Below, piece after piece: positions 2,151-21,637 of a stretch of 28,651 nt of DNA (the stretch's first letter is position 1; the number at the start of each line of letters is the position of its first letter). The stretch lies in the IMG/VR virus record IMGVR_UViG_3300037156_000256, positions 1 through 28,651 of that record. One strand, given 5' to 3'. Origin of the DNA: a virus. Under the pieces are notes generated by a model. That model ran no database searches. It was not told the DNA's origin and saw nothing but the letters and a program-made list of their open reading frames with translations. A program made the position numbers and the translations under genes.

Positions 2151-3074
2151 TCAGCCCCGTTGATTGACAGCAGCCAAAAACGTTTCGAATGCTTCAGAGG
2201 GACGGACAACGCCGTCGGCGAGGCCCGCGGCGACGGCGGCTTCGCCGCGGAAGGTGTCGGCTTCCGTCGCCAGCGCTGCCTCTTTGGAAAGCCGGCCGCC
2301 GCGGTAGCGGCTAACGGTCGCCGCGAACTGGTCACGGCCGCGATCGAGCTCGGCGCGGATCCGCGAGGCAACCTCGGGCGGCAACGGGCCGAACGGATTG
2401 CCGTCGACCTTTCGCGCACCCGAACTCAGCAGGGTCACGTTGACGCCGTCGGATTCGAGTTTCTTGGAGAAATCGACATGCATGGTCATGACGCCGATCG
2501 AGCCGGCGCCGCCGGTTTCCGGCAGCACGATCTGGCGCGCCGCCGCGGCAAGCAAATATCCGCCGGAATAGGCAAAATCGGTCAGGATCGCGATGGTCGG
2601 CTTGATCGCCGACAGTTCTGAAATCATATCGGCGGTATCGAATGCGCCCGCCGCCTCGCCGCCATAGGAATCGACCTCGAACACCACACCCCGGACGCTG
2701 CGATCAGCTGCAGCGCGCATCACCTGCGTCTGGATGCCCTCATAGGAGGTATCGCCGGAATAGCTGCCGATCCATTTGCCCTTGTGCACCAGCGTGCCTT
2801 CGACCGAGATCACCGCGACGTGGTCGATCACCGTCAGGATGCGGTCGCCGGCGCCGCGCTCCTCGAGGCGGCGGCCGAGCTGGTCGCCGAGCCGTCCCAT
2901 GGACTCGCCAGAGGAAAACGCCACATGGTCGACGGCCTCGGCGCCGGCCACCGCGACGCGAGTGCCTAAAATGCGCGAGCCCAGACCCTCGGCGATCGCC
3001 GCGGCTTTGCCGGGCTCGATCATCAGCATCGAATTGAAGGCGCGCGCGGCGACGTGCGGAAGCAGCGTGGTCAT
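2151..3074 (-). CDS. S49-family prohead protease (SppA/lambda gpC-like)
   Basis: A serine protease that matures the prohead, probably cleaving scaffold and portal. The 307-residue frame begins at the ATG at 3074, overlapping the portal stop by ATGA. Seen: ISVEGTLVHKG near residue 90, the oxyanion region VVFEVDSYGGEAAGAFD (about 131-147), the nucleophile serine in FAYSGGYLLAAAA (about 167-179) and the general-base lysine region GSIGVMTMHVDFSKKLESDG (about 192-211). This Ser-Lys arrangement is that of PF01343. The protein ends soon after the catalytic domain (SEAFETFLAAVN), so it lacks the long C-terminal scaffold part that lambda gpC carries; the next gene probably supplies it. Confidence 0.93.
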   Translation of the reverse strand: MTTLLPHVAARAFNSMLMIEPGKAAAIAEGLGSRILGTRVAVAGAEAVDHVAFSSGESMGRLGDQLGRRLEERGAGDRILTVIDHVAVISVEGTLVHKGKWIGSYSGDTSYEGIQTQVMRAAADRSVRGVVFEVDSYGGEAAGAFDTADMISELSAIKPTIAILTDFAYSGGYLLAAAARQIVLPETGGAGSIGVMTMHVDFSKKLESDGVNVTLLSSGARKVDGNPFGPLPPEVASRIRAELDRGRDQFAATVSRYRGGRLSKEAALATEADTFRGEAAVAAGLADGVVRPSEAFETFLAAVNQRG

Positions 3075-4774
3075 TTCGGCCTCGCATTCTGTTCCGCCAT
3101 TACTGCAAGGCGTTGCTCGATCGAAATGATGCTGCCGCCTAGCAATTCCACATTGCTCTGAACCGATTCGATTTTAGCGGCGTTGGTAGCGTCATCTTCA
3201 CTTTGGTCGGTCGGATCCGGGACGATGGCGCCAGGTGCCGCTTCAGCTCGAACAAGGCCCCTCGCCTCGATCTCGATCTTTTCGAGTGCCGCCTGGTCGA
3301 GCACCTCTTCCCAGTCGAGGCCCTGCTGGGCGCACTCGATTTCCTGCGTCGAGGTGAGGTTGCCGATGCGGATCGCCGAGCCCTCGGCTTCCTTGACCGG
3401 ATCGACGTAGCCGCGGCCGGGCCCGATCCAGCGGGCGCCGAGATAGGCGGCCGGCATTTCCATGAAATCGGGCGCACCCGCCGGTGGCTTGATGTAGCCG
3501 CGGTCGAATGCCTCTTCCATCACGGCGAAATAGATCGGCGTCTGCACCTGTTCGATCAGGATCGCGCTCAAGGTCTGGATATGCCGCCAGACTTCGTTGA
3601 GCGCGGCCCTTGCGGAAGAATAATTGGTCTTCGACCAATCCATCGATACCTGTTCATAGGAAAGCCCGCGCGCCGAGGCCACCGAACGCAGGAACGCAGT
3701 CTGGAAACCTTCGAACGCCTGTGTCTGCCGCGGCGAGGCATTGATCTTGACCTCGTCGCCGATCGCCATCACCGGAATCCGAACGCCATTGAGATAGGCG
3801 GGATTCTCGCTGTAATAATTCGTGCGCTTGTCGGCAAACGTCATGCTCTGGGGCGTGAACGCCGACGTCGCGTCCTGCACGGGCAAATTCGAATAGACAA
3901 ACGCCGCAAACAGCGCGTTGACGGTGGCCGAGGCTAATTCAGTGTCGGCGAATTTCGAGATCATGCGCAATCGCGGCATCAACGCGGCGAACGGCGTGAT
4001 GGCGCGGCTCTGGTCCTCGCGTTCCGGTTCGAAGCCATGGATGAAAACCGGTCTGCCCCATGATGTGGCGCGCGGTATCCGGGTCCATTGCAGGATCTGG
4101 GCGAAGCGAAACCAGTCGGCGGGATGGCCGTTGCGCACCTGGTAGGCGAGCGGGACGCCGTCGGAATCGAATTCGATGCCGCCGCGCAGCTTCAGCGTGT
4201 CCGGTTGGCCCATCGGATTGCAAAGGCGGTCGGGGTCGACGAGCCGGAAACATGTCGCATAGCGCCCGGTCGATTCGGGCTTCCAGGACATATAGCCGGT
4301 GGTCTCGTTGAGCGTGACGTAGGTGCGCGCGGCGAGCCGCATCTGGCCGTTGTGCGACATTCGGCGCTGCGCATCGCAGTGGCGCATTGGGTTGTTGGCG
4401 TAGGCGTTCCATTCGCTCTTCAGCGATCGCTTCAGCTCCTGGATCACCTTGGCGTCGGCTTCGTTCGTCGGATCGAGGCCGAGCGCGCGGGCGTCGGGCT
4501 GCGGCGACAACCGGATGCAGGCGCCGACCAGCATGTCGACCAGGCGCATGACGATCGCCGCGGCATGCGGGTCGTTGCGCACCAGGTCGCGGGCGCGCAT
4601 GCCGGCGAGATAGCGGTCGTACAGCGTCGAGGATTCGCCGGAGGTGAACGGCGGCCGCCAGGCATAGGTCTCCTGGCTCTGCAGCGACGCGCCGCGATAG
4701 GCGGAACGGTCGGTCTGGCCGCCGAACGCGGCCATCTGCTGGCCGTTGACGCTGATGTTGTAGCTAGGCTGCAT
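3071..4774 (-). CDS. phage portal protein (lambda gpB family)
   Basis: The portal forms the ring at the unique head vertex through which DNA is packaged and ejected. It has 567 residues, close to the family norm of about 500-550. The ATG at 4774 begins MQPSYNISVNGQQM. Typical family stretches are SSTLYDRYLAGMRARDLVRN (about 47-66), DPDRLCNP, the mid-protein GLSYEQVSMDWSKTNYSSAR with surrounding RALLN-type helix, and YVDPVKEAEGSAIRIGNLTS. These match PF05136 (portal, lambda type). It overlaps the preceding small gene by 11 bases and the following protease gene by 4, so translation is likely coupled through the head module. Confidence 0.95.
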   Translation of the reverse strand: MQPSYNISVNGQQMAAFGGQTDRSAYRGASLQSQETYAWRPPFTSGESSTLYDRYLAGMRARDLVRNDPHAAAIVMRLVDMLVGACIRLSPQPDARALGLDPTNEADAKVIQELKRSLKSEWNAYANNPMRHCDAQRRMSHNGQMRLAARTYVTLNETTGYMSWKPESTGRYATCFRLVDPDRLCNPMGQPDTLKLRGGIEFDSDGVPLAYQVRNGHPADWFRFAQILQWTRIPRATSWGRPVFIHGFEPEREDQSRAITPFAALMPRLRMISKFADTELASATVNALFAAFVYSNLPVQDATSAFTPQSMTFADKRTNYYSENPAYLNGVRIPVMAIGDEVKINASPRQTQAFEGFQTAFLRSVASARGLSYEQVSMDWSKTNYSSARAALNEVWRHIQTLSAILIEQVQTPIYFAVMEEAFDRGYIKPPAGAPDFMEMPAAYLGARWIGPGRGYVDPVKEAEGSAIRIGNLTSTQEIECAQQGLDWEEVLDQAALEKIEIEARGLVRAEAAPGAIVPDPTDQSEDDATNAAKIESVQSNVELLGGSIISIEQRLAVMAEQNARPK

Positions 4775-4922
4775 CGGAGTTCGTCAACTCGCCGTTGGAA
4801 TCATAGCTATGGCTCACAAAATGACCCGTCGGCTGTGCTGCCGGAGTCGAAGGGGCAGACGCGGCGGCCGGCGGATTTTGCGCCAGCAGATCGGGCTTGC
4901 GGTCGCGATTTTTCTTGCTCAC
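4764..4922 (-). CDS. small conserved-position head protein between gpW and portal
   Basis: A 52-residue gene with a GTG start at 4922, preceded by GAGGATTCCG, and a TAG stop that overlaps the portal ATG. The product begins MSKKNRDRKPDLLAQ and ends SNGELTNSDAA; it is basic at the N-terminus with a Pro/Ala-rich middle. No known domain is visible. The tight fit between the gpW stop (8 bases upstream) and the portal start, plus the shared bases with the portal, support it as a real gene. Its place matches small uncharacterised proteins between gpW and portal in lambda-type head modules. Function is unknown. Confidence 0.65.
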   Translation of the reverse strand: MSKKNRDRKPDLLAQNPPAAASAPSTPAAQPTGHFVSHSYDSNGELTNSDAA

Positions 4923-4930
4923 CGGAATCC

Positions 4931-5152
4931 TCAAAACACGATGCCAATCGCGCCGCGCGTGTTGACGCCGGCGATCTGGTCCTGCAGCTGCTGCACATAG
5001 GCCATCAGCTTGTCGATATTGGCCGGTGTGAACTTGGTGGTGAAGCCGCCGGCGACGGTGACCTCGACGGCCGATTTCCCGATCTGCAGGCGGTGCAGCG
5101 CGAGCTGCGCGTCGGCGAGCATGTCGGTGAGTGATGGGACGCTAGCGGTCAT
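4931..5152 (-). CDS. head-tail joining protein gpW
   Basis: gpW fills and extends the portal channel after packaging so that the tail can join. The 73-residue product is close to lambda gpW (68). Seen: an N-terminal helix LTDMLADAQLALHRLQIGKS, a short beta hairpin VEVTVAGGFTTKFTP, then a second helix NIDKLMAYVQQLQDQIAG, exactly the alpha-beta-alpha order of PF02831. It starts right after the terminase large subunit stop (TAA ATG region, no gap) and precedes portal, the lambda A-W-B order. Confidence 0.92.
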   Translation of the reverse strand: MTASVPSLTDMLADAQLALHRLQIGKSAVEVTVAGGFTTKFTPANIDKLMAYVQQLQDQIAGVNTRGAIGIVF

Positions 5153-7144
5153 TTACCACGCACCCTTGTTGAGATCGGCGAGGCCATCGCCGTAGAGGCC
5201 GCCGGACGAAGAAGCCGGCGCGGTCGGTTCGGTTTTTTCCGGAGCGCCCGCGAATTCCTTCGGCGTGAACAGATCCGGCGCCTTGAGGTCTGCCGGAATG
5301 CCGCGCTCCTTGGCGCGCTGCGCCCAGTCATCCCTGGTAAACGAAGCCAGATAGGCCTCCGCGATCGCCATGCCGTAGACCCGACAATCGAGGAAATGGT
5401 TTTCGGCGCCCGAGCGGACCTTCCACAACTGGCGCTCACGCCCGCGGAATTTCTCCTTCGCAAGATATTCCGACGTGATCTGCTTGAAGTAGATCTCGTC
5501 GAGAAAACTCCCGAAGTGACAGAACCCCGCCGGATATGCCGGCGCGCCGTGCTTCAGCTCGGACACCAGCGCGAGGTAGCTGTAGAACGTGCTCTTCAGC
5601 GGCCAGGTGCCGACACCGCGCAGTTTCGCGCCTCCCTTGATCCGCCGGCCGCGATAGTCGACGTCCTGGTCGCTGGCGGTGCCGAGGGCCGGCCTGCCCC
5701 AACCGTCCCTGCCCTGCAGTGCCTTGGTGCCGGCGTGTCGACGGGTCCACTCATAGACCGTGTTGGTGCGATAGTTGGCGTCGATGCCGAATTCGTCATG
5801 GCGCCAGGTGTTGCCGTAGGCGTCGGGCCAGTGCCGGTTGTAGAGATCGGTCAGCGCGGCGAACGCGCCGGCGTCGACCTCGGTGGTATCGCCGTCGAGA
5901 TAGCCGGCCTCGATCACCCAGGTGCGCCGATCCGGCGCGTGCGCCAGCACCTCGTAATAGATGCCGCGCATCTGGACGTCGCAGGCAACCGTGACCAGCA
6001 GCGCGCCGACCGGGATATGGCCCTGGCGGTACTCCTCGCGGCGCGCCATCAGCTTTTCGTGGTCGGGCGCATCGCCGCGGAAGCGATATGGAAGCCCGAG
6101 CACCAGGTTGTGAAAATCCTTTTTCGCGGTCTCAGTCTTCTGCGACTTGGTCCAGTCCTCTGCGATCGCCTCGTAGCTCATCATCAGCGAGATGAAGGCG
6201 TCGATGTGAAAGCCGGGATGCGTGCCGGGCTCGTCGACGCTCGCTACCCAGCGGCCGGCGCGAACCGCCAGCACGCGCTCGGCCTCGGTGACGTGGTGGC
6301 CGCAGTGGCAGCGGTAGGTGGAACGATGCGGATGCTCGGCGTCGATGGTGAAGCGGTCGAAGTGATGCACGAACAGGTTTCGACACTCGGGGCAGATGCA
6401 GTTCCAGAAGCGCTGATCGGAGCGGCGGAAGGCGCGATCGATGCGGCAGTGCCCCTCGACCTTGTCGCCATCCTCGCCGACGTCGACCTCGGGCGTCGAG
6501 ATCGCGAGTATCTTGTAGCCCTTGGTGCGGCGGAACGAGGTGAAGCGGCCGAAGAACAGCGTTTCCGGATCGGCGCCGTTGTCGAGCGTCTCCCATTTCG
6601 AGACCTCATCCTTGACGCCCTTCTTCGCCGTCTTGCTGGAGAGGTCCATCGCGCTGTTGGCGTTGGCGAGCCAGATCCGGCCGCCGTTGAAAACCTTCTC
6701 ATAGGTGGTCGAGCCGGCGCCCGATCGCGAGGTCTGCGGAACGATCACGTTCCGTCTGATTTTTTCATGCCACTTGTCGATCAGCGGCTGCAGCTTGCCG
6801 GAGTTGAGCTCGCGCAGCGCGTCGATGCCGGGGATGGCATAGAGCGTGTTGGCGCGTTCACGGTCGGCGATATACAAACACCAACCAAGTGCCAGGATCG
6901 ACGCGCCGGATTGCTGCGATTTGCGGATCGAGACTTCGCTGCACGGGTTATCGTCCGAAAGACAGTCGGCTATCTCGACCAGGTACGGCGCGCCGGCCGC
7001 GTTCCACATTTCGCCGGCTTGCGGGCCGTCGACCAGCACGAGATTTTCGCCGAGCCAGCGCGAGAACGGCAGCGGCTCGGGGGGGCGGATCAGTTCGGCC
7101 AGGCGCGAGGCCAGAAGATGCAGCGCGCCAGGATGAAAGTTCAC
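5153..7144 (-). CDS. terminase large subunit (lambda gpA family)
   Basis: The packaging motor: an ATPase that pumps DNA into the prohead plus a nuclease that cuts at the genome ends. 663 residues, usual length for PF05876. Start is a GTG at 7144 that shares GTGA with the small subunit stop. Seen: variant Walker A near residues 74-82 (RKSQQSGAS), Walker B-like KDEVSKWE at about 178-185, Cys/His pairs CICPECRN and YRCHCGHHV in the 240-290 region that look like a zinc site, and the nuclease region beginning VACDVQMRGIYYEV with a metal-binding Asp. The C-terminus is Ser/Gly-rich. The gpA type implies a cos-cutting phage. Confidence 0.95.
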   Translation of the reverse strand: MNFHPGALHLLASRLAELIRPPEPLPFSRWLGENLVLVDGPQAGEMWNAAGAPYLVEIADCLSDDNPCSEVSIRKSQQSGASILALGWCLYIADRERANTLYAIPGIDALRELNSGKLQPLIDKWHEKIRRNVIVPQTSRSGAGSTTYEKVFNGGRIWLANANSAMDLSSKTAKKGVKDEVSKWETLDNGADPETLFFGRFTSFRRTKGYKILAISTPEVDVGEDGDKVEGHCRIDRAFRRSDQRFWNCICPECRNLFVHHFDRFTIDAEHPHRSTYRCHCGHHVTEAERVLAVRAGRWVASVDEPGTHPGFHIDAFISLMMSYEAIAEDWTKSQKTETAKKDFHNLVLGLPYRFRGDAPDHEKLMARREEYRQGHIPVGALLVTVACDVQMRGIYYEVLAHAPDRRTWVIEAGYLDGDTTEVDAGAFAALTDLYNRHWPDAYGNTWRHDEFGIDANYRTNTVYEWTRRHAGTKALQGRDGWGRPALGTASDQDVDYRGRRIKGGAKLRGVGTWPLKSTFYSYLALVSELKHGAPAYPAGFCHFGSFLDEIYFKQITSEYLAKEKFRGRERQLWKVRSGAENHFLDCRVYGMAIAEAYLASFTRDDWAQRAKERGIPADLKAPDLFTPKEFAGAPEKTEPTAPASSSGGLYGDGLADLNKGAW

Positions 7145-7806
7145 TGCGCTGCCCGTTCGTCGGCCAGTTCGTCGTCGGCGCCGGCGGAATCGGTTTTTGG
7201 TGCCTCGGTGGCGATGCCGGTCAGCGCCTCGGCAATTTCGATGCGCAGCTTGGCGGCGAGCTGCTTCAGTGCGACGCGGACGCCATGCACGCCTTCCTTG
7301 GCAACGGCAGCAACCATGTCGTCGGCGACGTTCGGCAACCGGTCGACGATCGACGTGATCGAGGTCGCGCAGGTGACGACGGCATCGGTCACGCGATCGA
7401 CCCGCACCAGCTCGCCGCGGCGCTCCTCGAGATCGAGGCGCAGGCGCTCCGACTCATGCCAGGTCTTGGTGCGAAGCGCTTCCTTGTAGCTTTCGTTATC
7501 GTCGGCTGGCTTGGCCGCAGGCGCCGCGCCCTGGTCGGCACGCCCTGGCGCCTGCGCCTTCGACGGATCATCGGTGCGGCCGCGCAGACGGTCATACTCG
7601 ACGACGTTGAGCTTCTTGACGAAGCCTCTGCTGTCGCGCTCGACCGTCAGTCCGAGTTCGATCAGGTCCTTGACCTTTTTGCTGACCGCCTGTTTCGAAA
7701 CGCGATCGCGCTCGGCGACCTCCGAAACCGTCAACATCACCGCCCGAGGCGGCTGCGACAGGCCGGGAAGCGTTCCGTCAACCGTGGTCGTTACCTCCGT
7801 CAACAT
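7141..7806 (-). CDS. terminase small subunit (Nu1-like, winged HTH)
   Basis: Recognises the packaging site on phage DNA and recruits the large subunit. The ATG at 7806 gives 221 residues; a TTG two codons upstream is possible. Seen: an N-terminal winged helix-turn-helix (VSEVAERDRVSKQAVSKKV, about residues 28-46), a Pro/Ala linker, then a helical C-terminal half with ESERLRLDLEERRGELV and a segment TSITSIVDRLPNVADDMVAA typical of small terminase/Nu1 homologues. Overlaps the large subunit by 4 bases. The 129-base gap upstream may hold its DNA target. No strong ribosome site was seen. Confidence 0.85.
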   Translation of the reverse strand: MLTEVTTTVDGTLPGLSQPPRAVMLTVSEVAERDRVSKQAVSKKVKDLIELGLTVERDSRGFVKKLNVVEYDRLRGRTDDPSKAQAPGRADQGAAPAAKPADDNESYKEALRTKTWHESERLRLDLEERRGELVRVDRVTDAVVTCATSITSIVDRLPNVADDMVAAVAKEGVHGVRVALKQLAAKLRIEIAEALTGIATEAPKTDSAGADDELADERAAQ

Positions 7807-7812
7807 GGTCAA

Positions 7813-7941
7813 CCGTGATTTTCACGCTGTTTGGCTGGCGGGATTTCGGGCGCAGCGTGGCCGCATGGGGTCAGGGATCGGGGAAGGACCCGTGCGACAA
7901 TTGTGTCACTGTGGCCCTCCCGCAACGGCTTAGGTCAGTTG
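7813..7941. other. candidate cos region upstream of the small terminase
   Basis: This gap lies between the tail-protein stop and the small terminase start. It contains a hyphenated dyad at 7892-7909, GTGCGACAATTGTGTCAC, with core ACAATTGT and outer GTG/CAC arms, centred at 7900/7901. Lambda-type phages place cosN just before the small terminase gene and cosN is a partial dyad, so this is the best candidate cutting site. Short G-rich blocks (catggggtcagggatcgggg) next to it might be small-subunit binding sites. No experimental or comparative support is available here. Confidence 0.35.
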
Positions 7942-8496
7942 CTACCCGCCGGGCGCGCGGCCCGCGAGGATGGCGTTGACCTCGATAACCAGACGAGCGG
8001 GAAGCTCGGTGGCAACGGTTCGCTCGAAAGCGGCTTTGCTTTCGGCCTTGACCATTTCGGCCGGGATCGCTGGCCCAAACAGTTTGTGGATTGGGAAGCG
8101 TTCCTTGCCCTTGCGCACGAAGACGTGGCCGCCGAGCGACGGTGCGATGAAGGCGTGCGGAAAGAGATGGCGCTTCCCCCATGGGGCTGCGCTGACGCCC
8201 CGCTTGGTCTGACGCGGGCCAAACTCCTTCAGCGACATGTAGCTGCCGTGCGCGATGATGCGATAAACCAGCATGGCGTTGCTGGCCGGCGCAGTGTGCA
8301 GCGCCTGGCGCACCTTGCCGTATTTGAGCCCGGTCTGTTTCACCAGCACGCGGCCGATCTGGGTGCGCGCCTTGTCGCCGGTATGATTGATCGCCCGCCG
8401 CAGCGCCGGCTTGATGTTGTGGCCGGCGCGCTCCAGCACCGACACCAGCTTCTGAAAGCCGCGCGTATCGATGCTGACCTTGAGCTCGGCCGCCAT
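7942..8496 (-). CDS. minor tail protein Z (gpZ-like, tail completion)
   Basis: A 184-residue protein resembling prophage minor tail protein Z (PF06763), which acts at the top of the tail during tail completion. Seen: KVSIDTRGFQKLVSVLERAG at the start, ALRRAINHTGDKARTQIGRV (about 31-50), GLKYGKVRQAL, and a C-terminal FIAPSLGGHVFVRKGKERFP. The ATG at 8496 shares a base with the TAA of the upstream gene (TAATG). Its place is unusual: in lambda Z lies after the capsid genes, while here it comes before terminase. Family call is fairly sure. Confidence 0.85.
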   Translation of the reverse strand: MAAELKVSIDTRGFQKLVSVLERAGHNIKPALRRAINHTGDKARTQIGRVLVKQTGLKYGKVRQALHTAPASNAMLVYRIIAHGSYMSLKEFGPRQTKRGVSAAPWGKRHLFPHAFIAPSLGGHVFVRKGKERFPIHKLFGPAIPAEMVKAESKAAFERTVATELPARLVIEVNAILAGRAPGG

Positions 8497-8681
8497 TACC
8501 GCTTCCTCAACGTAGCGAGCCGCGCTACGGCGGCACGGGCCAGCGCACCGCTGCGGACATCCTCGCGAAAGGTGCGGCCGACCAGCGATAGTTCGCGCCC
8601 GACATCGCGCACGTCGCCCTTTTGGCCGGCTTCAACCGCGCGCTGCAGTGCTTGCCTGCGTTCCCGACAACGGCAGCCCAT
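8496..8681 (-). CDS. small basic phage protein, first gene of the late module
   Basis: 61 residues starting MGCRCRERRQALQRAVEAGQ, rich in Arg and Ala and mostly helical (VRDVGRELSLVGRTF). GGAAAG sits about 6 bases before the ATG at 8681, and the stop overlaps the gpZ start by one base, which supports it. The two closely spaced cysteines at the N-terminus are odd. No family recognised. As the first late gene it might be a structural chaperone or packaging accessory, but nothing in the sequence shows this. Confidence 0.65.
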   Translation of the reverse strand: MGCRCRERRQALQRAVEAGQKGDVRDVGRELSLVGRTFREDVRSGALARAAVARLATLRKR

Positions 8682-8702
8682 CGAATTCTTTCCAGAAAGA
8701 TC

Positions 8703-8731
8703 GGGCCGCTCGCCTTGGCGACAAGCGGCCC
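8703..8731 (-). other. strong hairpin just upstream of the late genes
   Basis: Perfect 8-bp stem GGGCCGCT/AGCGGCCC at 8703-8710 and 8724-8731, with an inner stem CGCC/GGCG in the loop (8711-8720). On the minus strand it is followed by a short pyrimidine run (GATCTTTCT) and then, after 11 more bases, the ribosome site and ATG of the first late gene. It may be a weak terminator, an RNA stability element or a factor-binding site. Confidence 0.55.
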
Positions 8732-8801
8732 AAGTCTAGGGGAGGAAACGCCCAAGGAGGGCTGCGATAACGCCGAAGCGCTACTGCATACCCTACGCAA
8801 A

Positions 8802-8836
8802 CAAAAACGCCCGACACGTCGAAGCGTGCCGGGCGT
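8802..8836 (-). terminator. intrinsic terminator 2 (late leader)
   Basis: A 12-bp stem with one A-C mismatch (ACGCCCGACACG / CGTGCCGGGCGT, 8807-8818 and 8825-8836) and a 6-base loop. On the minus strand the stem is followed directly by TTTTTGTTTG, so it terminates leftward transcription. It lies between the NusG-like gene and the late module. Confidence 0.8.
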
Positions 8837-8938
8837 TGGTCTGTCTGAGGTCTTTGCCACGATTTACATTGGAACCATCCAACAGTGCGAGGATTGTCTC
8901 AGGTCCTTCTATGCCCTTTTCGGGCTCGCTATAAAACG

Positions 8939-8963
8939 CAAAAGCCCCGCGATTGGCGGGGCC
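8939..8963 (-). terminator. intrinsic terminator 1 (end of early operon)
   Basis: Perfect 7-bp stem GCCCCGC/GCGGGGC (8944-8950 and 8956-8962), 5-base loop, followed on the minus strand by TTTTGCGTTTTATAG. It lies 66 bases after the NusG-like stop and would end transcripts of the leftward early operon. Confidence 0.8.
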
Positions 8964-8988
8964 TTGTGTTCCGATGCAGCAGCAGCCC

Positions 8989-9031
8989 GGGTGGTTCGGG
9001 GGTGGCTGAGGCGTGGCTCAGGGGTGGCTTA
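8989..9031 (-). repeat. four 11-bp tandem repeats after the NusG-like gene
   Basis: The hexamer GTGGYT recurs at 8991, 9002, 9013 and 9024, an exact 11-base period; full units read ggGTGGTTcgg, ggGTGGCTgag, gcGTGGCTcag and ggGTGGCTtat on the plus strand (AGCCAC-type on the transcribed minus strand). The array begins at the stop codon of the NusG-like gene and ends before terminator 1. Because it is outside the coding part and 11 is not a multiple of 3, it is a DNA or RNA signal rather than a peptide repeat. Confidence 0.75.
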
Positions 9032-9697
9032 TATCTTTTCGATATCAGCAAGAGAGAGCGAAACGCGTCTGGAACTTCCGAAGATGTCGACCAATAGATG
9101 TACCCGAAGTGAGTCGTCAAGCTCTTCAAGTGCCGTATTGGCCAACTGGGCAGCGTTTAATGTGGGTAATCGCTCGATCGAGCCTGGGAACGACGCGAAC
9201 GGACCGCTAGCGACCCTCACCCGCTCACCGAGAATATACGGCATCTCGAAGAGTTTGGTCGTACCTGGAATGGCGCCGTCGATCTCGAGGCCCTGAATTT
9301 CCGCAATCATTCGCCACGGCACTTCGACCGGAAGGTCGTTGTTGCAGACCAGGCCGCGGATGTGGGCCATCTTGAAGATCTCGCGCCAGCGGTCCGCCGA
9401 TTCTGAATAATCGATGAAGGCATAGCCTGGGAAAAACGGCTCTATCTTTTCGCGCATCGGCTTCAAGACCGCCTTGCGCTGCGATCGCGACAACTGATTG
9501 CGCGGCAGAGATTTCATGCTGCGCATCAGCGGACGATATAATTCGATCTTGAGTCGTCGCAGGAATTCGACCCCGACATTATCAAGCCCGTCGCTGATCT
9601 GAACGAGATGCCAGGACTTGGACGAAGGCGATGATGACTGCTGTCGCATCACGTCGACAAAACCAACAACATCGCCCTTTTTAAGCTGCATATTCAT
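9029..9697 (-). CDS. phage NusG-family transcription (anti)termination protein
   Basis: A 222-residue NusG/RfaH-type protein expected to bind RNA polymerase during elongation. Seen: an N-terminal NGN-like domain (WHLVQISD at about 30, IELYRPLMRS, then EPFFPGYAFIDYSESADRW, about 87-105, with the family FPGY signature), GLVCNNDLPVEVP, and a C-terminal KOW domain with LGERVRVASGPFASFPGSIE (about 152-171) ending VDIFGSSRRVSLSLADIEKI. The KOW looks NusG-type (beta) rather than the divergent RfaH type. Start overlaps the upstream HTH gene by ATGA. This is not the host nusG, which lies beside secE and rplK; here it is the last gene of the early operon, directly before repeats and terminators. A role as late antiterminator is inferred from this position. 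Confidence 0.88.
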   Translation of the reverse strand: MNMQLKKGDVVGFVDVMRQQSSSPSSKSWHLVQISDGLDNVGVEFLRRLKIELYRPLMRSMKSLPRNQLSRSQRKAVLKPMREKIEPFFPGYAFIDYSESADRWREIFKMAHIRGLVCNNDLPVEVPWRMIAEIQGLEIDGAIPGTTKLFEMPYILGERVRVASGPFASFPGSIERLPTLNAAQLANTALEELDDSLRVHLLVDIFGSSRRVSLSLADIEKI

Positions 9698-10974
9698 CTG
9701 TTCCCCTCGTTGGATTCAGGTAAAATCGTTCCGTCTTTTCGTGGTGGCCATCGGCAGGGAACGGGGATTCCGTTCTGCCGGATTTGCGCCTCGAAGTCGG
9801 CCACTCCCAGCGCGCCCCTGATCATCCGTGTGCCCCTGCGCATAACCATTCGCGGTTCGGCCCAATGCCCGGTCCATTCGTGGATCCGATGCCGCCAGGC
9901 GTTGAATTCACGGGTTTCCGGTTCGGCGACGAACCAATCGAGGATGTCGCTGCCGGCGAAGCGCGAGATCGCCCGAAGGTCTTCGCCAATCGGCGCCTTG
10001 CGCATAAGGCCGCTGCCCTTGACCTCGTCGTGGATCAACCGAGGTGGCGGAGATCCCGTCACCGTCGCCAATACCCGCAACGCCTCGATGTCGGGCCCTT
10101 CGTCGATCCAGGCCGGATCGACGGGCTTTTCCGGCAATCGTGCGTTGGAGAAATTGTCGAAGATGCGATCCTTCAGGAACCGTTCCGGCCGCACTGGCGG
10201 CGGTTTTCGCTTCGTCGCCTCGATTTTCTTGGCGTACTCCGGCGATGCGGCCGCGGCCAGTTCTTGTTCGGCCGGCGTGAGCGCGGCGAAGATCGGAAGA
10301 GCCTTTGGCCAGGCCCACATTTCCCGATCGGGATAGTTTTTCTTGAAGAACCCGAAATGCTCCGGTTCGGCTGATGATGTTGCTTCGCTGCTTTCCTGAT
10401 TTTCAAAATCAGCCAAACGCCCCCCGAAGGGGGGTTGGGGGGAAGATTCAGGTTCAGGTTCAGAGATTAGGCCCTGGGCGGAGTCCAAGGGCTGGCCGAG
10501 GGCTGGCCGAGGGCTAACCGTTTCATGCTCGGAATTTAGCCCTTGCTGCTGGCCAGGGCTAATTCCATCAGCCCCATCGGCTCCATCATCCGGATTCTCA
10601 CCCCTGGCGCGCGCTTCGATCTCATCCGGATCGGAATCAATCATGATCCGAATTTCATCGGTCGTCCGTTTGCCGCGCCCTTCGCTATTGGACCGGCCGT
10701 GCTCGTCCAGCCAGCGCGCAAAACGGACGATGGCGCCGATGGCCTCGAGAAATTTCAGGCGCGAGCGCACGGTGTCTGGCGAGACGTCGCAATCCTTCGC
10801 CAGCGTCTCGATTCCCGCGATGCACGTGCCCAGATCATTGCAATACAGGCAGATCGCGCGAAGCAGGGATTTGCCGAGCGGGTTGTTCAGGGTCAGGCTA
10901 CGCGCCCAAGCGTGTGCCTCGTCGGAGGCAACGCGCCGCTTCCGGCGCGCGGCCCGGTCAGGTGTCGCGGTCAT
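9694..10974 (-). CDS. winged-HTH phage replication-like protein (lambda O-type organisation)
   Basis: 426 residues. Seen: basic N-terminus, then a helix-turn-helix domain (GKSLLRAICLYCNDLGTCIA and ETLAKDCDVSPDTVRSRLKF, about 33-76), a long acidic/Gln/Pro linker (about 110-200) and a C-terminal domain with ERFLKDRIFDNF, a tryptophan-rich NAWRHRIHEWTGHW and a basic tail. The start-side domain resembles those of phage replication initiators. The linker is encoded by DNA packed with short repeats and palindromes (10396-10566), the arrangement known from lambda O, where the origin lies inside the initiator gene. No DnaB loader or helicase gene is visible next to it. Replication initiation is therefore inference; a transcription regulator is the alternative. 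Overlaps the NusG-like gene by 4 bases. Confidence 0.65.
   Translation of the reverse strand: MTATPDRAARRKRRVASDEAHAWARSLTLNNPLGKSLLRAICLYCNDLGTCIAGIETLAKDCDVSPDTVRSRLKFLEAIGAIVRFARWLDEHGRSNSEGRGKRTTDEIRIMIDSDPDEIEARARGENPDDGADGADGISPGQQQGLNSEHETVSPRPALGQPLDSAQGLISEPEPESSPQPPFGGRLADFENQESSEATSSAEPEHFGFFKKNYPDREMWAWPKALPIFAALTPAEQELAAAASPEYAKKIEATKRKPPPVRPERFLKDRIFDNFSNARLPEKPVDPAWIDEGPDIEALRVLATVTGSPPPRLIHDEVKGSGLMRKAPIGEDLRAISRFAGSDILDWFVAEPETREFNAWRHRIHEWTGHWAEPRMVMRRGTRMIRGALGVADFEAQIRQNGIPVPCRWPPRKDGTILPESNEGNR
10396..10566. repeat. repeat/palindrome cluster, candidate phage origin
   Basis: Within the linker of the HTH gene: AT-rich palindrome CTGATTTTCAAAATCAG (10396-10412), CCCCCCGAAGGGGGG hairpin (10420-10434), TTCAGG repeated (10447-10463), three tandem 11-mers GGGCTGGCCGA, GGGCTGGCCGA, GGGCTAACCGT (10489-10521), and a 12-bp inverted repeat with one bulge, GGAATTtAGCCCT/AGGGCTAATTCC (10531-10566). 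The 11-base period is out of codon phase, so the repeats are kept at the DNA level. Origin function is inferred by analogy with lambda ori inside O. Confidence 0.5.
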
Positions 10975-14778: not shown

Positions 14779-15585
14779 TCAGCCGAGCTTGCCGAACACG
14801 GCGAGCAGTTCGGTCTTTTCCGCCGCGTCCGTCACGATCAGGTTGAAAGCTGCCTGCCGGACATGCTCGGCTCGGTGAAGTTTGATACCGAGCAGAAGCT
14901 TCCCCTCCTCCAGCTTCCACCTGAGGAACGCCGGGACCTCAACATCCGGATCGCCGAAATAGACCGGGATCGAGAGCACCATCTTGGTCGGAAGTTCGAG
15001 ATCGCCCTTGGTGCGGGCCTCGGTATTGTCGGTGAACTCGAAGCTTTCGTTGTCGCTGGAGGTGCGAACCGCCTGGATGAAATTGACGTTGCGGCGCGCC
15101 TGCAGGTCGCGCACGGCTTCAAGCAGTGTGGCCGCGTCAGGTGCCTTGATGTCCGGCGCGTTCTCCTCGATAAAGCGGGCGAATTCGAGCTGCGGCTTGA
15201 GCTGGCCGTTGATGCCGGTCCAGGTCTTCCATTCCTCCGAAGGCGGAAGGTCGAGCGTCGCCTTGTGCGAGACCAGAGCAGCCTTGTCTGTGGCGTGATA
15301 GTCGATCGCACCGAGGATGCGGCTGATGGTGACGTCGGCGAACATCATCGAGGTCGGCGTCTTGAAGCGGTTGAGATAGGCTTTCAAGGCATCCGCGTTC
15401 TGCAGCGTGACGTTCTGCGCTGTGATTTTCGGCGGCAATACGTCGATCTTGTTTGGCGGCGTCACGTCCTGCTGCGAATGACCGGGCGGGAGGATCAGGA
15501 TCTCGCGGCCGCTCGGGGTAGTGATGGCTTGCGCGACGCTGGCGGCTTTCAAGGCCAGATCGGCGACGGTTTCGGCTTCATTCAT
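14779..15585 (-). CDS. DUF2303 (YfdQ-like) protein
   Basis: 268 residues. Seen: NEAETVADLALKAASVAQAI at the start, LKAYLNRFKTPTSMMFADVT (about 68-87), AIDYHATDKAALVSHKATLD (about 93-112), TGINGQLKPQLEFARFIEEN and the C-terminal VPAFLRWKLEEGKLLLGIKL. These match the YfdQ/DUF2303 family (PF10065), widespread in prophage early regions and often near recombination or replication genes. Molecular function unknown. Abundant expression is likely since it opens after a 47-base gap with its own AGGATTTAACCC upstream. Confidence 0.88.
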   Translation of the reverse strand: MNEAETVADLALKAASVAQAITTPSGREILILPPGHSQQDVTPPNKIDVLPPKITAQNVTLQNADALKAYLNRFKTPTSMMFADVTISRILGAIDYHATDKAALVSHKATLDLPPSEEWKTWTGINGQLKPQLEFARFIEENAPDIKAPDAATLLEAVRDLQARRNVNFIQAVRTSSDNESFEFTDNTEARTKGDLELPTKMVLSIPVYFGDPDVEVPAFLRWKLEEGKLLLGIKLHRAEHVRQAAFNLIVTDAAEKTELLAVFGKLG

Positions 15586-18789: not shown

Positions 18790-19460
18790 CGCGCGATCTC
18801 CGGCATGCCGCTGTCGAGCAGCCGGCCGGCTTCTGACAAAATTTCGTCTGCTATCTTCTGTTTCCTGATTATCTGCATGTACGGTCGCGTTGCAGACAAT
18901 ACCCGGCATACATCAGCGAGCCGCCACAGCTGCCATTGCCATATTGGAAGCCAGCCGTTTTTCCTTTGTGAGCATCTCACCAATCCGCCGCCCCATCGGT
19001 CGCGAAGCCAATGGATCACCTCTGAATCCGTTGAATAGATAGCTATCCGATACCGCTGCTTGCTCACCGCACCTGAGGCGATATGACCTTCGCCATCCAG
19101 CATGCCGGCGGTGTATGCAATCACAGCGACATCGCCGGGAACCGTCACTGTTGCGGGTAGGAATCGCGGGTGTGCAACCGGCTCAACGGCGTAAACAAAA
19201 CGTTGAGCAATAGATCGCGGAACGCCATGTATCCTTCCAGCCTCACCGGCTGACGAGCCAGAACGAAAGGTGAGGATCACTGCCGAGCGAAGATGATCGT
19301 AAGGCGAGACTGAGCCGCGGCGAGGCGCGCGCATTTTGCAGCCCGCTTTAAGAAGAGCCTTTCTCACGCATTGGTGGCTTGCGGCGTACCTCGCCGCTAG
19401 CTGAGGAGTATTCAAACCAGACTCGTAAAGTCGCTTTGCTTCGACGGCGTTGATCTTCAT
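18786..19460 (-). CDS. free-standing LAGLIDADG-type homing endonuclease with N-terminal HTH
   Basis: 224 residues. The first 90 hold two HTH-like segments (TPQLAARYAASHQCVRKALL and SSAGEAGRIHGVPRSIAQRF). From 111 on, VIAYTAGMLDGEGHIASG contains the LAGLIDADG signature (AGMLDGEGH, 118-126) with the metal-binding acid, followed by YRIAIYSTDSEVIHWLRDRW and ATRPYMQIIRKQKIADEIL, typical of the single-motif type that works as a dimer. The gene overlaps both neighbours by ATGA, so it is fully built into the operon and does not interrupt either neighbour. Its codons look slightly less GC-rich than its neighbours (by eye), consistent with a mobile origin. Activity not shown. Confidence 0.8.
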   Translation of the reverse strand: MKINAVEAKRLYESGLNTPQLAARYAASHQCVRKALLKAGCKMRAPRRGSVSPYDHLRSAVILTFRSGSSAGEAGRIHGVPRSIAQRFVYAVEPVAHPRFLPATVTVPGDVAVIAYTAGMLDGEGHIASGAVSKQRYRIAIYSTDSEVIHWLRDRWGGGLVRCSQRKNGWLPIWQWQLWRLADVCRVLSATRPYMQIIRKQKIADEILSEAGRLLDSGMPEIAR

Positions 19461-20395
19461 GCCTCAATCCTCGGCATTTCGGTCCATATCCGGCCGTCAA
19501 GTTTCGGCGTCGGGATCTTCTTTCCATTCTTGGCGTGCTGCTTCCAGAAGAACGGCACGCCAGCATCGATGCACATTTCTTTGATGCCCCTCACCCATTC
19601 GATTGCGCATTCCCGCGCGCCAGGGCCGCTCTCCGCACCCGTAATCACCCAGTCGAGTTTGCCAAGCCCGCGATCGTGCAGCGCACTATGCCCGCCAACA
19701 ACGCCGCGATGATTGATCGACGTTAGATTGATTGGTCCCAGAAGCGGCTCGGCACTGATGAAGCGCACCGCCGCCGGCGTCCGAAGCAATAGCGGAATCC
19801 GCTCGTCGGCTTCCTGCTGGCGCTCGGTCGAGACGCCGAGCCAGATATTTTTGAAATGCCAACCTATGGCACCCATTGTGTAGAATGCGCCGTTCGCGCC
19901 GAAACCGTGGTCAGTGTGGATTTGCTTCATCGCGATCGACACGCGGTCGACTTCGTGGTGCCGGCCAAGCGTCAGGCAATAATCCCGCATCCGCGCGGCG
20001 CGCTTGGTCAGCACCTGGAACGTATGTTGCGGCGACAGCGCCATCACGGCGAAGACCCGGTCGATCCATTCGTCGGGGCAGTCTTCGTGGAACAGATCGC
20101 CCATCGAGTTGACGAAATAGATGGTCGGCGCGCGGCGGGAGAGCGGTTTCAGGAAGAGCTTGTCGGGAGCCAGTGCCAGCTTGCCGGTCCAGACCGCGCT
20201 TCCCTTCACGCTCTTGGTGGTGCCGTCGTAATGGTTGACGTAGTTCGAGTTGCTGCCGCCCGTGCGGTTCATCTTCTGGATCCGCGCGGCCATCTTCATG
20301 GCGTAGCAATTGGTGCAGCCAGGCGAGACGATGGAACAGCCGACGATCGGATTCCACGTCGCGTCGGTCCACTCAATTGCGGAGTTGTTGCTCAT
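19457..20395 (-). CDS. phage Gp37/Gp68-like three-Cys protein (DUF5131)
   Basis: 312 residues. Start MSNNSAIEWTDATWNPIVGC then SIVSPGCTNCYAMKMAARIQ: cysteines 20, 27 and 30 (C-x6-C-x2-C) resemble a radical-SAM-like [4Fe-4S] motif. Further family marks: IYFVNSMGDLFHEDCPDEWI (about 92-111), FQVLTKRAARM, NIWLGVSTERQQEADERIP, RFISAEPLLGPI and WVITGAESGPGARE. This is PF07505/DUF5131, abundant in phages; the reaction is unknown. A partner called TcmP often accompanies it, but none is visible; the next gene is the LAGLIDADG endonuclease. Overlaps neighbours by 4 bases. Confidence 0.88.
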   Translation of the reverse strand: MSNNSAIEWTDATWNPIVGCSIVSPGCTNCYAMKMAARIQKMNRTGGSNSNYVNHYDGTTKSVKGSAVWTGKLALAPDKLFLKPLSRRAPTIYFVNSMGDLFHEDCPDEWIDRVFAVMALSPQHTFQVLTKRAARMRDYCLTLGRHHEVDRVSIAMKQIHTDHGFGANGAFYTMGAIGWHFKNIWLGVSTERQQEADERIPLLLRTPAAVRFISAEPLLGPINLTSINHRGVVGGHSALHDRGLGKLDWVITGAESGPGARECAIEWVRGIKEMCIDAGVPFFWKQHAKNGKKIPTPKLDGRIWTEMPRIEA

Positions 20396-20667
20396 GCGGC
20401 CTTGGCCTCCGCAGGTTTCGACGATGCCGCAAGGATCGAGCGGATCAGAGCCCAGCCGAAATCAGTCGGCCGGAAGAACGGACCGCGTGGCCGCTCGCCA
20501 GGGAAATGCCGGTACCAGATTTCGATAAGCTGGCGTCTCCAGAGCGGCACCATCGCCTCGCGCTGGTCACGGGTGAGTGTGATTTGAGTCCCGTCGGCGC
20601 AGCAGACCGCGAGGTGCTTTAACGTCGCGATCTGCCGGTTTGAGAGGCGCGGAGCCGTCACAGACAT
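20392..20667 (-). CDS. hypothetical phage protein
   Basis: 91 residues, MSVTAPRLSNRQIATLKHLA at the start, a helix-turn-helix-like opening, then a basic aromatic middle (PLWRRQLIEIWYRHFPGERP) and GWALIRSILAA. No family recognised with confidence. Overlaps the DUF5131 gene by 4 bases and the DUF7666 gene by 10, with GGAG close to its ATG. Confidence 0.65.
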   Translation of the reverse strand: MSVTAPRLSNRQIATLKHLAVCCADGTQITLTRDQREAMVPLWRRQLIEIWYRHFPGERPRGPFFRPTDFGWALIRSILAASSKPAEAKAA

Positions 20668-21344
20668 TCTCCGATGATCTCACGCCTCAAGGCTCCGACC
20701 TTGTCTTCCTCGGTTTGCACCTCGCCGATCAAGGCCACGATCCACCAGCGCTCGCCTTTCCATTTCGGAGGGACAAACGTCGCGTGCAGCGCGTTCTTGG
20801 TGCAGATCTTCAGCGGTCCAGCGATGGTCTCAACGGTGCCCGGCGCGACAGGATCATTTTTTCCGCCATTGCTGGCGCGGCCGTTCTTATCGGATCGCCA
20901 GAACGCGACGGTCGCGCCCTCCTTCTGCAGCTCGCGCAAGCGAGCCTGAGAAGCGTCTGGCCACTTCCGTGCGAAGCACGGAATGGTGGCCAGCCAATAT
21001 TCTTTAGAGCCGTAGCCGGAGCCGTCGCCGCAGCCGTCGCCGTAGCCGTAGCCGGAGCCGTCGCCGGAGCCGTCGCCGCAGCCGGAGCCGTCGCCGCAGC
21101 CGTCGCCGTAGCCGTAGCCGGAGCCGTCGCCGCAGCCGTCGCCGTAGCCGCAGCCGTAGCCGTAGCCGTCGCCGTCGCCGTAGCCGTAGCCGTCGCCGTA
21201 GCCGCAGCCGTCGCCGTAGCCGTCGCCGCAGCCGTCGCCGTAGCCGTAGCCGTAGCCGTCGCCGTAGCCGTCGCCGCAGCCGGAGCTATTAAGAAATGAG
21301 TGCGGGACTTCGCCCCGCACGATTCTTGCTTCCGCTATTTCCAT
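20658..21344 (-). CDS. DUF7666-like protein with a long Gly-X repeat arm
   Basis: 228 residues from the ATG at 21344 (an ATG 5 codons earlier is possible). After 21 residues (MEIAEARIVRGEVPHSFLNS) comes a 91-residue array in which every other residue is Gly and the others are Asp, Tyr, Cys or Ser. The C-terminal 115 residues (YWLATIPCFARKWPDASQAR, GPLKICTKNALHATFVPPKW, WIVALIGEVQTEEDKVGALR) are a conserved phage domain that I match to DUF7666. The fold and job are unknown. The Gly-rich arm is probably extended and sticky and could bind metal through its Cys and Asp. Overlaps the DUF6948 gene by 10 bases. Confidence 0.75.
   Translation of the reverse strand: MEIAEARIVRGEVPHSFLNSSGCGDGYGDGYGYGYGDGCGDGYGDGCGYGDGYGYGDGDGYGYGCGYGDGCGDGSGYGYGDGCGDGSGCGDGSGDGSGYGYGDGCGDGSGYGSKEYWLATIPCFARKWPDASQARLRELQKEGATVAFWRSDKNGRASNGGKNDPVAPGTVETIAGPLKICTKNALHATFVPPKWKGERWWIVALIGEVQTEEDKVGALRREIIGECL
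21009..21281 (-). repeat. 273-bp hexanucleotide-type array (GGC-NNC)n
   Basis: On the coding strand the 91 codons alternate GGC with GAC, TAC, TGC or TCC without exception; all glycine codons are GGC and all others end in C. Longer units such as GDGYGYGDGCGDGSG recur. The unit length of 6 keeps the frame whatever the copy number. Lack of any third-base drift indicates recent slippage or recombination. Confidence 0.9.
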
Positions 21345-21637
21345 GGCGCGGATTCCCATGCAGCCACGGCAGCGGTCGTGACTTCCGCCACGGACGTGAT
21401 GTCGCGCAATTCGATGTCGGCCGCGGGGCCGACGCGGGCGCCTTTGACCGGGCCCATGTTGGCAAGGCCCATAAAGCCCTTGTTTTCGGTTGGCCAATAC
21501 AAGCAATTGCGCGCCGCGCGAAGCTTGATCGAGGCGCCGTCAGTGTCGGTCGTGTAGCCGAAGAACACGCCGCGATGCGACGTCGTCACCAGCACGGCAC
21601 GCTCGGACACCTTGTCCTCGTTCGGATGGTTGATCAT
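21335..21637 (-). CDS. DUF6948-like phage protein
   Basis: 100 residues from the ATG at 21637, with AGGAGAG about 5 bases upstream. Seen: RAVLVTTSHRGVFFGYTTDT (about 13-32), KLRAARNCLYWPTENKGFMG (about 38-57), GARVGPAADIELRDITSV and VAAWESAPWK. These blocks are typical of DUF6948. Often found next to DUF7666-type genes in prophages. Function unknown. 49 bases separate it from the next gene upstream, so a new translation start rather than coupling. Confidence 0.8.
   Translation of the reverse strand: MINHPNEDKVSERAVLVTTSHRGVFFGYTTDTDGASIKLRAARNCLYWPTENKGFMGLANMGPVKGARVGPAADIELRDITSVAEVTTAAVAAWESAPWK

Follow-up and report, generated by a model that had tools for sequence, protein, structure and literature searches.

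Several NusG paralogs are known to suppress transcription terminators: LoaP does so through a leader RNA hairpin (PMC12691694), and RfaH does so via the ops element (PMC7819879). In phages, an antiterminator has been reported in all phiLM21-like prophages (PMC12429752). A NusG-like antiterminator before late genes is already annotated (phiLM21; PMC12429752; two PHROGs), and its position is not new. Two kinds of small RNA are also relevant here. The late leader of Stx phages, the pR'-tR' transcript, yields the stable sRNA StxS (PMC7873438), and the alpha-r8 RNAs (MmgR, SisA-D) are trans-acting sRNAs of alphaproteobacteria which carry an anti-Shine-Dalgarno (anti-SD) motif (PMC12559287).

The locus described here lies in an IMG/VR virus record of 28,651 bases, the whole of which was analysed and is called the window; its source is seen as a prophage of a soil bacterium. 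On the minus strand the order is a nusG-like gene, 11-nt repeats, terminator T1, a mini-ORF, terminator T2, a conserved box, an alpha-r8 RNA with terminator T3, and the late genes. The features are as follows.

9694-10974, minus strand: replication-initiation-like gene upstream of the nusG-like gene, overlapping it by 4 nt (PHROG/ORF).
9029-9697, minus strand: NusG-family paralog, last early gene; 222 aa, NGN 26-139, KOW 152-222.
8986-9028, minus strand: 11-nt repeats of the GCCACCCCTGA type, directly 3' of the nusG stop codon; candidate recruitment element.
8941-8965, minus strand: intrinsic terminator T1, from sequence and structure.
8864-8880, minus strand: ribosome-site-like stretch and ATG-TAA mini-ORF, between T1 and T2.
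8806-8837, minus strand: intrinsic terminator T2, from sequence and structure.
8786-8797, minus strand: CGTAGGGTATGC box, -10-like; conserved, directly following a terminator; may be a late promoter or a site of loading.
8764-8787, minus strand: 5' hairpin of alpha-r8, covarying in phages and common to host alpha-r8 genes.
8689-8769, minus strand: alpha-r8/MmgR (suhB, RF00519) small RNA (Rfam).
8701-8733, minus strand: T3, the terminator of the alpha-r8 RNA.
8496-8681, minus strand: first late ORF, 61 aa, its ATG 19 nt after the T3 stem.
2151-8496, minus strand: late genes TailZ/neck, TerS, GpA terminase, gpW, portal and S49 protease (Pfam/PHROGs).

The product of 9029-9697 is a full NGN-KOW protein of the NusG family, distinct from the housekeeping NusG. 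It matches Pfam NusG (7.7e-7) and PHROG 6386, "transcription antiterminator" (1.3e-14), the latter profile covering residues 21-221 and hence most of the protein. A profile of the protein and its relatives, run against the PDB, matched E. coli NusG chains over both domains (E about 1e-27). In an AlphaFold model (mean pLDDT 74), residues 26-139 resemble the NGN domain of RfaH and NusG with a Z of 10.5, polymerase-bound RfaH being the best structural match, and residues 152-222 resemble the NusG KOW barrel with a Z of 8-9, so that the protein has the NGN domain and following KOW barrel of the NusG/Spt5 family. It scores below the model cut-offs for housekeeping NusG (TIGR00922, 44.8 vs 135.7 bits), RfaH (TIGR01955, 38.5 vs 144.5 bits) and LoaP (NF033641, 27 vs 125 bits). 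In many relatives a replication-initiation-like gene is likewise the upstream neighbour. At the equivalent position in three other loci (L009, L038, L090), the NusG-like protein has an NGN domain and no recognisable KOW.

A preliminary description of this DNA, made from the sequence alone, had placed a NusG-type NGN-KOW gene at the end of the early operon, and the matches above, the model and the 4-nt overlap upstream bear this out. It had also reported four 11-bp repeats, two intrinsic terminators on the same strand, a large hairpin, and then late packaging and head genes. Three of the repeats are clear, with 11-nt spacing (8991-9029) and 76-88% identity, and the fourth is weaker and degenerate. 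Their self-match at lag 11 is 0.69 vs 0.45 in dinucleotide shuffles, and 0 of 500 shuffles scored as high; in some relatives taken singly (L002, L003, L221) significance was not reached. Both terminators were recovered, as T1 and T2. The "large hairpin" is not a separate element and is instead T3, the terminator of the alpha-r8 RNA. The late genes do follow on the same strand, from TailZ/neck to a lambda-D-like decoration protein gene after the S49 protease gene.

Some further features of the window and its relatives were recorded. The first late ORF has counterparts with similar MGCRC-type starts in relatives. A conserved G-rich stretch of the TAGGGGGGTGGTCA type, possibly a cos site, lies between the HNH gene and the small terminase gene in L207 (about 5157), L209 (about 5170), L211 (about 5148) and L221 (about 5274). 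The early region of the window encodes a DUF5131 (Gp37/Gp68-like) protein at 19457-20395 and a DUF2303 protein at 14779-15585, both on the minus strand, and an ORF at 20658-21506 on the same strand has a long GDG/GYG repeat run which comes from short tandem DNA repeats. The mini-ORF between T1 and T2 recurs at 10 of 47 loci, where a background of 0.03 per kb gives about 0.4 expected; it consists of a ribosome-site-like stretch, an ATG, and a stop at once or one codon later, and is found in the window, L004, L007, L050, L084, L089, L117, L208 and L221. Its GGAG could pair with the anti-SD motif of alpha-r8.

The small RNA at 8689-8769 matches RF00519 over the full model length at 46.8 bits, above the gathering score of 41 (E 8e-7), with core and terminator intact. 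Its 5' hairpin covaries in phages, with 27 both-side changes vs 7.7 in shuffles, and the result was reproduced on a second alignment. The GCGGTAGCG motif before alpha-r8, which we took to recall the ops element of RfaH, was rejected in that role: it shows compensatory variation, belongs to the hairpin of alpha-r8, also occurs in host alpha-r8 genes that have no NusG, and is missing from the conserved place in NusG phages that lack alpha-r8. A NusG-specific role for the 5' hairpin was rejected on the same evidence. The likeness to ops is removed by the sharing of this hairpin with the host gene, and recruitment at an ops element was not found in the window.

The T3 stem ends a median of 17 nt before the first late ATG in relatives, and at most 23 nt before it in 22 of 28. 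This spacing leaves no room for a promoter, so a late mRNA that does not begin within the first late gene has to run through T3. The stem is followed by slightly fewer T's than in other alpha-r8 terminators (4.5 vs 5.2 of 8). As in antitermination of the Q and N type, terminators lie between the putative antiterminator gene and the late genes, in the path of the late mRNA.

We think it likely that the nusG-like gene encodes a processive antiterminator of the late operon, acting across T1-T3 and linking the early to the late phase. Without the paralog, polymerase coming from the early operon, or from the box before alpha-r8, would halt at T1, T2 and T3, and with the switch off only short RNAs would be made, the alpha-r8 sRNA among them. 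Once accumulated, the paralog would load on polymerase, most likely via the element that directly follows the stop codon of its gene, which would be the 11-nt repeats in the window's clade and a two-hairpin RNA in another clade. The modified polymerase would then pass the terminators and reach the packaging and head genes. Polymerase binding, read-through, the recruitment element and the start of transcription are all steps that we infer.

Relatives were collected from both ends of this arrangement. In an RNA-first scan, viral contigs were searched with a 17-nt alpha-r8 core, blind to NusG, which gave at least 119 stretches; the scan demands the exact core and so overstates the conservation of that core. 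With two named phages and the loci that the protein scans added, one order on one strand (NusG-like gene, terminator(s), alpha-r8 and, as far as the sequence extends, late genes) holds for at least 41 loci (38 distinct); the sample of viral contigs carries metagenome sampling bias, and the locus counts include some closely related phages. Among the 41, the NusG-like gene lies 90-920 nt upstream of alpha-r8 on the same strand, and packaging genes lie downstream in most of those whose sequence reaches that far. Two unrelated terminase types occur among loci with this order, and PHROGs and Pfam confirmed the family of the divergent NusG-like members. At least one terminator lies between nusG and alpha-r8 in 36 of 37 loci, vs 40 of 200 (20%) random control stretches. 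Two Bradyrhizobium prophages with deposited genomes (ppBeUSDA76-1, ppBdUSDA122-1) have the same order, their NusG genes being labelled "ABC transporter substrate-binding protein" or hypothetical.

Scans that started from the protein gave 19 close relatives, and in 17 of them packaging, HNH or TailZ genes follow on the same strand. Among distant relatives 26 of 63 have such genes downstream, and none has them upstream or reversed. A genome scan with alignment A6 returned mostly distant NusG/RfaH-type proteins, with the alpha-r8 core in none of those loci; pattern scans could not be used on the deep alignments A2 and A3, whose sequences had diverged too far. The survey of relatives which the preliminary description had proposed found the gene, the terminators and the late genes kept together. 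The comparative evidence supports the antitermination reading, and the NusG/terminator set-up, which recurs in dozens of related phages, probably serves as an on-switch for late genes.

The place of alpha-r8 within this switch is less certain. Ten of the 19 protein-first loci have it no more than 1.2 kb away (5 of 14 among those new to the RNA scan), so that it is common but not obligatory; it is absent from 8 of the 19 and is 2.9 kb off in a ninth. These gaps suit a reading which is quite possible, if somewhat short of probable, in which alpha-r8 is an independent trans-acting sRNA carried as cargo in the early-late gap, and the NusG paralog, unlinked to it, raises late processivity against Rho or pausing. 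Such a reading fits the core of the antitermination proposal and takes alpha-r8 out of the switch. It also agrees with the host-type hairpin and anti-SD core that phage copies retain, and with the presence of alpha-r8 in unrelated phages beside head, DNA polymerase and integrase genes. It does less well with T3, which adjoins the first late start codon, so that late transcription runs through alpha-r8 whatever else the RNA does. Among the matches listed, moreover, wherever alpha-r8 is followed by packaging genes and preceded by 500 nt or more of sequence, a NusG gene lies upstream, within 1 kb in all but L212, where it is 2.9 kb away; alpha-r8 and packaging genes without a NusG nearby were seen only in loci with less than 500 nt of upstream sequence and in L212. 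On our analysis, alpha-r8 may be either a short leader made in the off state, like the pR'-tR' transcript, or independent cargo.

Phage-borne alpha-r8 looks widespread, and no mention of it was found in the open literature searched. It occurs elsewhere in unrelated virus contigs (L029, L046, L019, L121, L051, L120, L010, L072, L108, L048), at sites on either side of the major head protein gene, after the scaffold protein gene, after the DNA polymerase gene, or beside an integrase or Dda-like helicase gene. One contig with the window's NusG/alpha-r8 module (L003) has a phage diversity-generating retroelement RNA (RF03022) at 2172-2324. RNA model R1, run on 297 genomes of one order, found mainly chromosomal alpha-r8, and no NusG lay near it in the 30 best loci, for which about 1.5 kb on each side was inspected.

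A CATAGGGT-like box is present in most loci, placed after a terminator. It persists in NusG clades that have diverged from one another, and also in four loci that lack alpha-r8 (L207, L209, L211, L224). Host alpha-r8 genes have CATATTGT at the box position, as their -10, with an apparent -35. In the phage copies no -35 was found at the box, the region being taken up by a terminator, and a sigma70 promoter scan of the window gave no late promoter match, leaving the conserved -10-like box. The paralog might be loaded at this box in the manner of Q, with TAGGGT as the -10 of a late promoter, and not via the 3' UTR element. The wide conservation of the box, and its coincidence with the host -10, are what such loading would lead one to expect, but the missing -35 is not, and the box stays constant while NusG falls to 15-30% identity, which points to recognition by a conserved factor, sigma for example, more than by the paralog. 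We regard loading at the box as rather unlikely.

The element after the nusG stop codon differs by clade. The window's clade has 11-12-nt CAC repeats, and another has a covarying RNA of two hairpins linked by GGCGCA, directly after the stop (L207, L209, L211, L215, L216, L212, L025 and L117); 6 of its 12 predicted pairs show compensatory changes. On the NusG tree, repeat type needs 2 changes vs 10.1 when shuffled (0 of 500), and terminase type needs 9. This contrast indicates that late modules are exchanged around a nusG gene which keeps its 3' element, although linkage alone could be a sufficient explanation for the co-inheritance.

Against the antitermination reading stand this difference in recruitment element between NusG clades, the lack of a clear late promoter in the window scan, the KOW-less proteins in the same place (L009, L038, L090), and L217 and L212, in which packaging genes do not directly follow. 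NusG-family proteins bind polymerase generally (PMC7819879), and this general binding would also let the paralog act on host transcription or on other phage genes, for example by displacing host NusG or Rho, its position then being merely that of the last early gene. We consider this improbable, given that adjacency to terminators and late genes is conserved despite very diverged proteins and swapped terminase modules.

Returning to antitermination, a more elaborate version is tentative and perhaps doubtful: a two-state late leader in alphaproteobacterial temperate phages. The lysogen would yield a host-captured anti-SD sRNA of the MmgR/Sis type, which might, like StxS, regulate mRNAs of the host. 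After induction the NusG paralog, recruited by a clade-specific 3' UTR RNA element, would make the sRNA gene serve as 5' leader for the virion mRNA. Judged by the literature searched, the new points are how general the layout is, a 3' element that differs by clade, the box and its conservation, an alpha-r8 leader whose T3 abuts the late genes, and the broad distribution of alpha-r8 among phages. If the proposal is true, NusG paralogs would join Q and N as a common type of late-gene switch in phages, their pairings with cis elements would be natural material for studying target choice, and a widespread alphaproteobacterial sRNA family would be placed within phage regulation.

The nearest phage system is Sinorhizobium phage phiLM21, whose NusG-type gene is likewise preceded by replication genes and followed by HNH and terminase genes. 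Its product, gp34, is annotated "NusG-like transcription anti-terminator" (PHROG 25909) and also matches PHROG 6386; the role is known there from annotation and is putative, as here. In contrast to the window, gp34 has no Pfam NusG match, and neither the alpha-r8 core nor the CATAGGGT box was seen in the nusG-terminase gap sequence that was read. LoaP of Bacillus velezensis is also a NusG paralog and acts through a small leader RNA element to suppress intrinsic terminators (PMC12691694), but it serves bacterial antibiotic operons with a different RNA element, and the window protein is far below its model cut-off. RfaH, an antiterminator of long operons, gives the best structural match to the NGN domain, whereas the window KOW is modelled as a NusG-type barrel with no helical CTD, and no ops requirement was found.

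Caulobacter GafZ offers an alphaproteobacterial case in which phage-like late genes, those of the GTA cluster, lie behind a terminator that an antiterminator passes (PMC11150451); GafZ is unlike known antiterminators and needs host NusG, whereas the window factor is itself NusG-like. The window RNA shares the RF00519 family and anti-SD core with MmgR and SisA-D (PMC12559287), but it is phage-borne, has its -35 region replaced by a terminator, and is located before late genes. Lambda Q - pR' - tR', to which the preliminary description had likened the layout, matches in that an antiterminator gene ends the early operon and a short leader RNA with a terminator precedes the late genes. The terminators that late mRNA must cross uphold that comparison; for the promoter part, the window shows a conserved -10-like box, and no sigma70-type late promoter or -35 was found. 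The accompanying suggestion, that a NusG paralog antiterminates the late genes, is favoured by co-conservation and by the T3-to-ATG spacing, the role itself being deduced from sequence. The window would thus differ from lambda in having a factor of the NusG fold in the place of Q, and a leader RNA that belongs to a host sRNA family.
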